In this document: piece by piece, positions 48,401-52,005 of the stretch
Position numbering within the stretch: position 1 is the first letter of the stretch
How the letters are laid out: each line of letters starts with the position of its first letter
Assembly: GCA_002700365.1 (NCBI GenBank)
Contig: PADB01000010.1
Span: forward strand, 730,504 to 794,503
Direction of reading: 5' to 3'
Origin: Kordiimonas sp.
GTDB taxonomy: Bacteria > Pseudomonadota > Alphaproteobacteria > Sphingomonadales > Emcibacteraceae
DNA length: 64,000 bases
Notes under the pieces: generated by a model
What the model was told of the DNA's origin: nothing
What the model saw: only the letters and a program-made list of their open reading frames with translations
The model's database searches: none
Program-made: the position numbers and the translations under genes

Positions 48401-48745
48401 ATGTATCGCCGTTACATCACTGCATCGTTGATTACGTCATTCCTTCTCTTCACGGGAAATTTTTCTGCACCCGGTCGGGCAGAAAGTCCCGATGATCAGA
48501 CTACACCCAAGACAGAGCAAAAATGCGGCATATGGGATCTGCCCTGCTGGTTAGATAAAATCTGGCCTGAAGAAAAAGACGTCGACATTATGGAAAAGCA
48601 GCTTGATAATTTTATGGATGAAAGTCAGAAAAAATTAAAAGACCTGAAAGAAGGGTTGGAGCAACAGACCGAAAAGTGGAAACGCGAATACGAAGAAAGA
48701 CGCAACACACCTCCTGCCACAGAGGACGAGGTCACAGAGATATAG
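48401..48745 (+). CDS. Small secreted protein with amphipathic coiled coil
   Basis: 114 residues with AAGGAG before the ATG. Signal peptide (about 1-28, cleaved near GRAES), a short Cys-containing segment CGIWDLPCW that could form a disulfide, then a highly charged Lys/Glu helix (about 55-103) predicted as coiled coil, and an acidic tail. Family not recognised. Divergent from the ABC importer. Likely periplasmic. Confidence 0.65.
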   Translation: MYRRYITASLITSFLLFTGNFSAPGRAESPDDQTTPKTEQKCGIWDLPCWLDKIWPEEKDVDIMEKQLDNFMDESQKKLKDLKEGLEQQTEKWKREYEERRNTPPATEDEVTEI

Positions 48746-48964: not shown

Positions 48965-49048
48965 ATGAAAACGATAGCATGGGGTGTATTCCTCAGTGGT
49001 TTTTTGGTCAGCTACCTTGGATCAATTATCATCCTGACAGAATTCTAA
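48965..49048 (+). CDS. 27-residue single-span membrane protein
   Basis: Reads MKTIAWGVFLSGFLVSYLGS then IIILTEF and stops at TAA. GGGGG (48954-48958) lies six bases before the ATG and a clean terminator follows 25 bases after the stop, so this has every sign of a real monocistronic gene. A positively charged start, a continuous hydrophobic stretch of about 22 residues and an acidic end predict one helix with the N-terminus inside. Function unknown; small hydrophobic proteins of this kind usually modulate a larger membrane complex. Confidence 0.62.
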   Translation: MKTIAWGVFLSGFLVSYLGSIIILTEF

Positions 49049-49104: not shown

Positions 49105-50340
49105 TTAAAGCCGCTGAAAACTGACCGCCGTCAGGTCATCTGGCAATGGGCGAGGAACACGCGCATCAAAAGCGGCCATCAGATCATCCAGAAATTCTAC
49201 CTTACCGTTACGGCCATCCTGAGAACGTAACGCGTTTGTCATTAATGACTGCAACCCTTCATCCATTAAGGCCACACCATCCTTATCCGGACTTTCAGTT
49301 AAGGCGTCACTGTAAAGGAACAACATATGGCCCGGCAGGAAAGGAAGGCTACGATCTTCATAAACAGCATCTTCTATAACCCCTAACGGCACACCGGACG
49401 GGTCACCGCACTGTATATTCCCAGTAGACAACTGCCCTAATAAGGGCGTCGTAGAGGCCGCAGAAGCATAGGTTATGCTATTCTGTCTGATATCAATAAC
49501 GCCGCATAACATGGTCGCAAATTGACCGGGATTCAAAAGACGACAGAGATGTTTATTTAGCTGCGCCAGATAATTCGCCGGACTCTTCATGCTATGGTCT
49601 TGTTGCATCAATGTCGAATGCAGCCGAAAGGTGTTCAAAGCCGCCGTGATGCCATGTCCGGCGAAATCCGTAATATGAAAAAACAAACGGTCATCATCTA
49701 TTTCCTGCACCCCCCAGAAATCACCCCCTAATTCATCAGAGCTGACATAGGCATGTTGAAGACGCACGCCATAACGGGCCTCTATGATGTCTAATTGATG
49801 TGCCGTCGGCAATAAGCCTTCCTGCATTTGACGGGCCAGTAAAAGATCACGATTCAATCTTTCATGGTAAGAACGGAGGCCATGCAGCAAAAAACGATTT
49901 TCAAGGTGTAGCCGCGTTCGGGCCTTCAACTCAACTGGCGTGATTGGTTTGGTGACAAGATCCGTTGCCCCCATTTCAAAAACACGCACCCTTTCATCCT
50001 GTTCGGATAATGCAGTTTGCACAATCACAGCCGGGGAATGAGGCAGGCTCATATCTGATAAGCGTTCTAAGACCTCAAACCCATCCACCTTAGGCATGAG
50101 AAGATCTAAAATTACTAAATCCGGGTGTAGCCGTTTAATTTTATCCAGTGCATCAGCACCATCAACGGCGAAATGAATCTGGCGAAAGCCCTCTTCGATC
50201 AAATGTACCTGTATCAGCAAACGATTGAGTTCAATGTCATCGACAACCAGAATGCAAGCATCGCTTACATCCGGCGTACCAGTAAAATTTTGCACATCCG
50301 CAACGGTGGCAAAGGGTTGTCCAGACACCCTGGTATCCAT
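49105..50340 (-). CDS. Response regulator with PP2C/SpoIIE-type serine phosphatase output
   Basis: 411 residues. Receiver domain (27-145): acidic pair D34/D35, phospho-acceptor D79, T109 and K131. A coiled-coil linker (150-180) leads to a PPM/SpoIIE phosphatase (190-411) with metal aspartates in DELGGDFW (D207), DFAGHG (D225) and the final DDLTAV (D401-D402). All catalytic residues are present. RsbU-like: when phosphorylated it should dephosphorylate an anti-sigma antagonist, here the STAS protein encoded 142 bases upstream. The sensor kinase is not nearby. Confidence 0.9.
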   Translation of the reverse strand: MDTRVSGQPFATVADVQNFTGTPDVSDACILVVDDIELNRLLIQVHLIEEGFRQIHFAVDGADALDKIKRLHPDLVILDLLMPKVDGFEVLERLSDMSLPHSPAVIVQTALSEQDERVRVFEMGATDLVTKPITPVELKARTRLHLENRFLLHGLRSYHERLNRDLLLARQMQEGLLPTAHQLDIIEARYGVRLQHAYVSSDELGGDFWGVQEIDDDRLFFHITDFAGHGITAALNTFRLHSTLMQQDHSMKSPANYLAQLNKHLCRLLNPGQFATMLCGVIDIRQNSITYASAASTTPLLGQLSTGNIQCGDPSGVPLGVIEDAVYEDRSLPFLPGHMLFLYSDALTESPDKDGVALMDEGLQSLMTNALRSQDGRNGKVEFLDDLMAAFDARVPRPLPDDLTAVSFQRL

Positions 50341-50482
50341 GGCACTCTCTTTATTACACGCGATTACTATAATGTATTGCGATCCCTACATGCCGCAATA
50401 CACCTTTCTAGCATCTACGGCCTTTTCACCGCAGGCGGGCCTATGCCCGAATTAAGACGCTTCAGTGTTTACGAACAGTATT

Positions 50483-50788
50483 CTAATGTTCGATTGTAAA
50501 CATCGTATCAAAGCGGGCCACATCAAACATGCGTTTGACCTGGCCTTGAGGCGCTTTCAATACTAACGTCTTATTCGTTTTGGAAATCTCATCACGGGCC
50601 AGTAACAACATCCCAAGACCTGCAGAATCAATGAAGTCCACGGCTGACAGGTCAATCACCTGCTGCGCCGTTTGATCGTTCAGCATAGTGCTAATCATTT
50701 CACGAAAGATGTCATGATCGGAAAACGTGATTTTTTCGCTCAAAGTTGCCTGCAAGCTCTCACCACCGTTATTGATTTCATAATGCAT
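50483..50788 (-). CDS. STAS-domain anti-anti-sigma factor-like protein
   Basis: 101 residues, single STAS domain of the RsbV/SpoIIAA kind. The phosphorylatable serine is S55 in DFIDSAGLGML, the classical site. Dephosphorylated STAS proteins bind and occupy a HATPase kinase, freeing its target. Both predicted partners are here: the phosphatase downstream on the same strand and the HATPase protein divergent from it. AAGGTGAG precedes the ATG. Confidence 0.92.
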   Translation of the reverse strand: MHYEINNGGESLQATLSEKITFSDHDIFREMISTMLNDQTAQQVIDLSAVDFIDSAGLGMLLLARDEISKTNKTLVLKAPQGQVKRMFDVARFDTMFTIEH

Positions 50789-51013
50789 AATTTATACTCA
50801 CCTTGGGATATTTAATCTGTGTCGTATTTTGTTCTTCTCTGCATTTAAGGCACCACCTAAACAAGCAGACCTCACAACGCAGTCTTTTCACACACAGTTA
50901 TCGTACAAATTAGTTACGGAAACCTTTACCTTGGACACATATTGAACTTTTTTCGCTCATTCCGGCCATTAAGAGAGTCGTAAGCTTTAATCTGTAAAGT
51001 CCGTGCATATACC

Positions 51014-51043
51014 ACTTGAATTCCATAAACTTGAATTCCATGA
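51014..51043. repeat. Tandem 15-bp direct repeat upstream of the HATPase gene
   Basis: ACTTGAATTCCAT occurs at 51014-51026 and again at 51029-51041 with two bases (AA, then GA) after each copy, ending 30 bases before the start codon of the HATPase gene. Each copy contains GAATTC. It may be a repeated regulator site or a local slippage duplication. Confidence 0.6.
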
Positions 51044-51072
51044 AACGGCTACACAGATAGGACTTTCACGCT

Positions 51073-52005
51073 ATGGCGTCACAGGCCACGCTTTATCACT
51101 TTGCACACTCAAACCAGAGTGCACAGGGATTTTTATCTCACCTCAGCGAAAATAATTTCGCACTGCAATCTTTTTCCGACATGTCCTGCCTGTTGGCGGG
51201 CATGCAAGATGATGCTGACTTTGACATCCCTGACGCCGTGTTAATTGATGGGACCTATTTGGAAGAACATGCTACCCAAATGTTGGACCATGGCCGCCAA
51301 CATGACCACTTTAAGAGTCTTCCGCTTATCATTTTCCAGGATGGAAATGTGGCCGATAACCTAGCGCCTTTTATCGCCGCTTTTTCATGCTTTTTTCTGC
51401 ACCCCCCCTATTCAGAAAAAATGCTCACATCCGTACTCAAGGCCGCTATTAGTGATTATCGCCGTTGGCAAAAACTACGGCGGGATATCGAAACCCGCAC
51501 CTCCGCAATCGGGCTTATTCAGTCCGGCATCTTTCACCTCAAAACGCATAGCGAAGCACGAAATCTGACAACAATGCTGTCACTGGCTTGCCCCGAACCC
51601 GATAGAGTAGCCATCGGCTTGTTAGAATTAATTGCCAATGGCATAGAACATGGCAATTTGGGCATCAGTTTTGATGAAAAAACCCAACTCATGCAATCGG
51701 GTGACTGGATGACGGAAATTGACCGCCGTCAGCAAACCATGCCTTATGCGGACCGTCAGGTTGAGGTGATATTCGCCCGAGAAGATAATTTGGTACGGTT
51801 CCGCATCACCGATATGGGGGATGGGTTTAACCCCGATAGCTATATGGAAATTGATCCGTCCCGCATGCACTTACCCCATGGTCGCGGCATTGCCATGGCA
51901 AAGGCTGCCAGCTTTGATCACGTCACCTATATCGGTAAAGGTAATTGTGTCGAAGCCATCGCTTACGACCCTGAATATCGCGAAACCCTCACAACATCGC
52001 CCTAA
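51073..52005 (+). CDS. Receiver-like/HATPase protein, RsbW-type switch kinase candidate
   Basis: 310 residues. Residues 1-130 look like a degenerate receiver: D59 sits where the phospho-acceptor would (VLIDG), but the N-terminal acidic pair is absent and the conserved Lys region reads HPPY. A helical linker (130-165) precedes a GHKL ATPase domain: N box ELIANGIEHGN (E185, N189), G1 DMGDGF (D247), G2 HGRGIA (269-273). No histidine kinase dimerisation site is seen, so this is an anti-sigma/serine-kinase type ATPase. Divergent from the STAS gene. Its target, sigma factor or other, is not in the window. Confidence 0.83.
   Translation: MASQATLYHFAHSNQSAQGFLSHLSENNFALQSFSDMSCLLAGMQDDADFDIPDAVLIDGTYLEEHATQMLDHGRQHDHFKSLPLIIFQDGNVADNLAPFIAAFSCFFLHPPYSEKMLTSVLKAAISDYRRWQKLRRDIETRTSAIGLIQSGIFHLKTHSEARNLTTMLSLACPEPDRVAIGLLELIANGIEHGNLGISFDEKTQLMQSGDWMTEIDRRQQTMPYADRQVEVIFAREDNLVRFRITDMGDGFNPDSYMEIDPSRMHLPHGRGIAMAKAASFDHVTYIGKGNCVEAIAYDPEYRETLTTSP

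Follow-up and report, generated by a model that had tools for sequence, protein, structure and literature searches.

A complete RsbU/V/W-type partner-switching module in Kordiimonas sp., probably the remaining output arm of a stage 1 F7 chemosensory cluster

Organization of the locus

Within the window analyzed here (the whole 64,000-nucleotide stretch of Kordiimonas sp. DNA, numbered from its first letter), positions 49105-52005 hold a three-gene module encoding a REC-PP2C phosphatase, a STAS protein and a receiver-like/HATPase protein. We confirmed the open reading frames, and located the features within and between them, at the following positions.

49105..50340, minus strand: REC-PP2C phosphatase, RsbU/RbaY-like and equivalent to the N-terminal two domains of CrsR/HsbR (411 aa; PF00072 + PF07228)
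49918..50253, minus strand: live receiver domain of the phosphatase (D34, D35, D79 and K131 all present)
49114..49698, minus strand: SpoIIE/PP2C phosphatase domain (D225, D345, D401 and D402 inside; D207 just before)
50483..50788, minus strand: STAS anti-sigma-factor-antagonist-like switch protein (101 aa; STAS_2; TIGR00377 above cut-off)
50624..50626, minus strand: Ser55 codon, presumed phosphorylation site judging from the sequence (D54-S55-A56-G57)
50789..51072, no strand: divergent intergenic region from the STAS gene to the kinase gene (284 bp)
51073..52005, plus strand: pseudo-receiver/HATPase serine-kinase-like switch protein, RsbW-like, of LvrC architecture (310 aa)
51073..51495, plus strand: degenerate receiver (pseudo-receiver), residues 1-141 (D59 codon at 51247-51249)
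51598..51957, plus strand: HATPase_c_2 domain (N box E185-x3-N189-x3-H193; G1 D247-x-G-x-G; G2 G270-R-G)

The STAS gene lies 142 nt upstream of the phosphatase gene on the same strand, and the kinase gene is divergent from the STAS gene across the 284-bp gap. Two further frames were observed nearby: a hydrophobic small ORF of 27 codons (MKTIAWGVFLSGFLVSYLGSIIILTEF) just downstream of the phosphatase gene (48965-49048, plus strand), and a 114-aa orphan (48401-48745, plus strand) that seems to carry a signal peptide and has a charged coil, for which no match was found in Pfam or NCBIfam.

Pfam searches assigned the phosphatase to Response_reg (E = 9.6e-25) and SpoIIE (E = 4.7e-33), the STAS protein to STAS_2 (E = 3.8e-14) and the rear of the kinase to HATPase_c_2 (E = 5e-7, residues 176-295). 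To these assignments we added active-site conservation, calculated over 32-34 aligned proteins per family. In the phosphatase, which shares 53% identity with its orthologue in genome G003, receiver residues D34, D35, D79 and K131 are invariant in 33/33 aligned homologues, as is each of the PP2C acidic residues D207, D225, D345, D401 and D402 (33/33). The STAS D54-S55-A-G motif with its Ser55 is invariant in all homologues (34/34), and in the kinase N189, H193, D247, G249, G251 and G270 are invariant, with E185 kept in 30/32 aligned proteins. Nothing in this residue conservation suggests decay of the triad, and its recurrence in dozens of genomes with the active-site residues kept indicates that the arrangement is not a product of chance.

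A PP2C phosphatase, a single-domain STAS protein with its serine and an RsbW-like HATPase are thus encoded together, and by gene content the locus is a complete RsbU/V/W-type partner-switching module; the initial annotation had proposed such a triad, and the Pfam domains and invariant catalytic residues bear it out. Family searches additionally revealed that the phosphatase contains the sole SpoIIE domain in the 2.4-Mb genome, that the STAS protein is its only free-standing STAS (a second STAS match sits within a 544-residue frame), and that the kinase is its single HATPase_c_2 protein above cut-off, so any partner switch in this genome is this triad.

The kinase carries a degenerate front receiver

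The front domain of the window kinase gave no match in Pfam. In a profile-profile comparison, a profile of eight such front domains matched a true-receiver profile with 96% probability (E = 1.7e-9, 117 columns). An AlphaFold2 model of the domain follows the (beta-alpha)5 receiver order with modest confidence (pLDDT about 37-75 there), and its residues 2-141 superpose onto many receiver structures with Z about 11-12 (VIA-align), while the rear-domain model superposes onto SpoIIAB/RsbW structures with Z about 14. For the whole kinase model, the best structural match is Leptospira LvrC (9qih, Z 17.6). The predicted structure and the profile match thus agree on a receiver rather than an unrelated fold.

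By alignment, A11 and H12 replace the acidic pair of a canonical receiver, Gln replaces Thr, and His/Pro replace Lys, so that D59 at the phospho-acceptor position is all that the window copy keeps of the active-site set. The initial annotation had described a receiver lacking its acidic pair and Lys; this stands, with Thr added to the losses, but has to be amended in that the phospho-acceptor aspartate is retained. Across the aligned kinase homologues, the positions of the receiver active site show no conserved residue. Because ten homologues outside the taxonomic order hold the full set (acidic pair, phospho-Asp, Thr and Lys) where the window copy has A, H, D, Q and H/P, we consider the front domain a pseudo-receiver, most likely descended from live receivers. 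This degeneracy is not peculiar to the window locus: all module-linked homologues examined in the order have a degenerate front receiver whose acidic pair is lost, and the Lys is lost as well, with the single exception of G001.

Sigma factors and NepR

We next consider the surrounding genome, for which our statements draw on family searches and limited stretches. A Sigma70_r2 search gave no match on the contig carrying the window and a GGDEF search gave no match inside the window, in agreement with the earlier observation that neither a sigma factor nor a diguanylate cyclase adjoins the module. Genome-wide there are eight GGDEF proteins and four sigma-70 factors, namely RpoD, RpoH and two ECF factors, the gene for one of which adjoins a ChrR-like anti-sigma gene; neither RpoS nor FliA is among the four, and none of them resembles EcfG. 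A NepR profile search of the same genome returned 0 matches, with a match in the positive control. The initial annotation had reasoned that PhyR-NepR-EcfG would normally be in place and that the switch might control something else, a premise not supported here, with NepR undetected and no EcfG-like sigma factor among the four.

Among 121 genomes searched, 42 (own included) contain a kinase match and 32 contain NepR. The latter all belong to family f6; the remaining 89, which include every kinase-match genome, gave no NepR match, and no kinase match was obtained in any of the 32 NepR-bearing f6 genomes. Kinase and NepR never co-occur in this sample, a split that follows families and may only reflect ancestry.

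In a Kordiimonas-like genome (G048), an ECF-sigma-like gene (L048:14924-16045) lies about 6-6.5 kb downstream of the triad; with unrelated genes in between, we did not use it as a candidate target. It is followed by a membrane-protein gene, and an ABC transporter lies between the triad and the ECF gene.

Chemosensory genes adjoin the module in relatives

A survey of neighborhoods for recurring extra genes, suggested in the initial annotation, revealed a che cluster beside the module in relatives from three families. The family of the window genome includes an Emcibacter MAG, and in Emcibacter-like genomes of this family the gene order is holA-ECH-kinase and then, divergently from the kinase, STAS-cheY-cheA-cheW-mcp-cheR-cheD-cheB-X-STAS-PP2C (domains checked), where X is a protein of about 210 residues, the second STAS protein has the Ser and the phosphatase is a REC-PP2C protein. 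In these relatives the kinase and STAS genes thus precisely bracket the che genes. The window has the order holA-kinase and, divergently, STAS-PP2C, with no ECH (enoyl-CoA hydratase), and in G001 and G003 it is holA-ECH-kinase and, divergently, STAS-PP2C, likewise che-less. A tblastn search for che-gene remnants in the 284-bp gap or nearby found none, the CheY and CheB matches being only to the phosphatase receiver.

A second arrangement occurs in family f5 (eight genomes) and in G033 of f2, where che genes, a soluble MCP-like gene, STAS, REC-PP2C and kinase all run in one direction. Altogether, the split modules of the order comprise 15 that are che-linked (families f1, f2 and f5), 13 that are unlinked, including that of the window, and one at a contig edge; for 4/13 of the unlinked modules the fetched stretch still contains an MCP gene. 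As 13/28 split modules and all six fused modules examined (0/6 linked) are che-less within the fetched stretch, the che link is not obligatory. Its recurrence in relatives points to the origin of the module's input.

Related arrangements were also found further afield, such as a locus in another family of the class (L137) with CheB, an MCP-like protein, REC-PP2C and a kinase without any receiver, and three loci in other classes (L142, L143 and L145) where a che cluster is accompanied by STAS and a REC-PP2C-HATPase fusion. Within the order, REC-PP2C-pREC-HATPase fusions are nested among the split forms in the phosphatase tree, which argues that the parts act together. For three genomes (G013, G015 and G019) no kinase was found and the phosphatase, at about 280 residues, has no receiver, and this joint loss supports the view that the parts belong together. 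In the two of these loci examined, L110 and L111 (G013 and G019), both the che cluster and the STAS gene are still present. We additionally observed, at L072 and L073 (G073 and G083), a STAS protein and a 379-aa MCP-like protein close to a short HATPase protein of about 163 aa, as well as another che cluster in G001 (L097, G001:C18:710000-729000) that has no STAS/PP2C/kinase triad and whose CheA groups with the f5/f2 clusters.

The window genome itself has three CheW-domain matches, and the two examined are a 1044-residue CheA and its CheW neighbor. In the CheA tree this protein falls outside the module-associated CheA clade (support 100/100), and we therefore rejected it as an orthologue of the module's old partner; it could still be a present-day kinase for the module. 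The genome thus yielded no CheA of the module-associated class.

Comparison with described systems

The published stage 1 F7 order is STAS-cheY-cheA-cheW-mcp-cheR-cheD-cheB-mcpA-like-STAS-serine phosphatase (PMC7184735), and the gene order in the window's relatives matches such clusters of Vibrio cholerae and Methylomicrobium, with one cheW in the relatives examined; the F7 class of the relatives' clusters is judged by this gene order and by CheA proteins 41-49% identical to those in clusters from other classes. The window locus does not have this order, keeping only its last two genes plus the kinase. With no che gene or remnant beside the triad, we classify it not as an F7 cluster and only as the former output end of one.

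Among characterized switches, CrsR-CrsA of Shewanella oneidensis, which controls RpoS, has the same REC, PP2C and HATPase domains and a partner STAS protein. Its genes lie in the che1 (F7) locus (PMC9855816), a setting shared by the window's relatives (cheY, A, W, R, D, B and a second MCP-like gene). The window differs in that the regulator is split into two proteins encoded on opposite strands, with an extra pseudo-receiver on the kinase, and in having no che genes at the locus and no RpoS among the sigma factors of the genome. HsbR-HsbA of Pseudomonas aeruginosa (with HsbD and FlgM) likewise combines REC-PP2C-HATPase with STAS and, as in the window, has its live receiver on the phosphatase protein; it has an input of its own, the HptB pathway, and FlgM, HsbD and RpoS as outputs. 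All elements of the CrsR-CrsA/HsbR-HsbA type are thus present here in split form, and fused versions nested among split ones occur in the same order.

Within the class, RbaV/RbaW/RbaY of Rhodobacter capsulatus resembles the window in being a REC-PP2C/STAS/HATPase system with no adjacent sigma factor, so a partner switch of this kind is already known there (PMC3999984). The Rba system differs in that RbaY is encoded away from RbaVW and RbaW is described only as a HATPase protein, and R. capsulatus has a PhyR/EcfG-type pair whereas NepR was not detected in the window genome. Relative to published systems, what differs is that the regulator is split, that the kinase bears a pseudo-receiver and that both the che genes and RpoS are missing. 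Our search of a limited, open-licence literature found nothing on partner switching tied to chemotaxis in Alphaproteobacteria.

Origin of the che-less module

Collectively, we favor the reading, with a probability of roughly 0.7, that the locus is a split, che-orphaned switch of the CrsR/CrsA-HsbR/HsbA kind and represents the output end left over from a stage 1 F7 cluster after this genome lost the che genes. The phosphatase tree follows families, with the window grouping with G001, G003 and the Emcibacter-like genomes, and therefore indicates vertical descent. We infer loss of the che genes from the window lineage, since their later insertion would have had to reproduce the very gene order that is also found in other classes. 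The loss may have been a single event shared by the window, G001 and G003, which was not rejected (p-AU 0.42).

Under an alternative that we regard as unlikely, the module would be a stand-alone RbaV/RbaW/RbaY-like switch that was never tied to chemotaxis in this lineage, with the che genes inserted later in Emcibacter-like relatives. The Rba system itself, with no sigma factor nearby, is a precedent for this, and in the phosphatase tree the window is the basal branch of its family. The same divergent layout, again che-less but with a live kinase receiver, occurs in G182 (L136), which belongs to another alphaproteobacterial family; the absence of che genes could accordingly be an old state and not a derived one. 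What weighs against later insertion is the identical che-STAS-PP2C order in f1, f2, f5, another family of the class and other classes, as well as the CheA tree, which separates the f1 che clusters from those of f5 and f2 much as the phosphatase tree does. The triad could also be a functionless remnant on its way out after the che loss, given that its sensory genes are gone, that the genome is small (2.4 Mb) and that the module is shortened in G013, G015 and G019. We consider this very improbable: none of the three proteins has lost catalytic residues, which are as well conserved as those of che-linked relatives, and the module is whole in the che-less G001 and G003 too.

An equally improbable alternative concerns how the module works rather than where it came from, taking the kinase as an LvrC-type response regulator on whose front domain a hybrid histidine kinase acts, with STAS and PP2C secondary. 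LvrC, a REC-controlled putative anti-sigma factor (PMC13269768), shares the receiver-HATPase architecture (PDB 9qih) and is the best structural match; many homologues elsewhere have live receivers, several of them beside large receiver-bearing (hybrid-kinase-like) proteins and with no PP2C or STAS. The LvrC receiver, however, is canonical and is phosphorylated by LvrB, whereas the losses described above affect the front receiver of the window kinase and of every module-linked homologue in the order; moreover, a live receiver is present on the phosphatase, with STAS and PP2C alongside.

Proposed working and candidate targets

We infer a phosphorylation cycle, by analogy with CrsR-CrsA and HsbR-HsbA (PMC6482189), as well as an input kinase, a role for the pseudo-receiver and a target. 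A histidine kinase would phosphorylate Asp79 of the live receiver and thereby switch the phosphatase; ancestrally this kinase would have been the cluster's CheA, and here it would be some other kinase. The HATPase protein would phosphorylate the STAS protein on Ser55, with the PP2C phosphatase reversing this. Unphosphorylated STAS would bind the HATPase protein and free the target, which would stay held when STAS is phosphorylated; in either state, STAS may have a second binding partner as well. CrsR and HsbR differ in the STAS form that they bind (PMC6482189), and the polarity described, that of RsbW/CrsR, is adopted by choice. The pseudo-receiver would stand outside normal receiver chemistry, most likely serving as a dimerization or docking domain.

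For the target, our leading candidate, at slightly below even odds, is a sigma-70-family factor, with RpoH or RpoD likeliest. A diguanylate cyclase or similar enzyme reached via the STAS protein is a clearly weaker possibility, and a target of some other kind is a little less likely again. Ancestral (stage 1 and 2) F7 systems are described as unclear in function, with evidence for a role in stress. On a broader and rather doubtful reading, the partner switch would serve as the general-stress or lifestyle switch of an alphaproteobacterial branch with no detectable NepR and no RpoS-like sigma factor, rewired in the window species from the lost CheA to another kinase with its output kept.

A lineage in which the switch is found both with and without che genes, one of its receivers being live and the other dead, and in which only four sigma-70 factors come into question, offers a compact place to learn the output of such a switch, and the locus seems to be a case of an output module persisting after its sensory array is gone.
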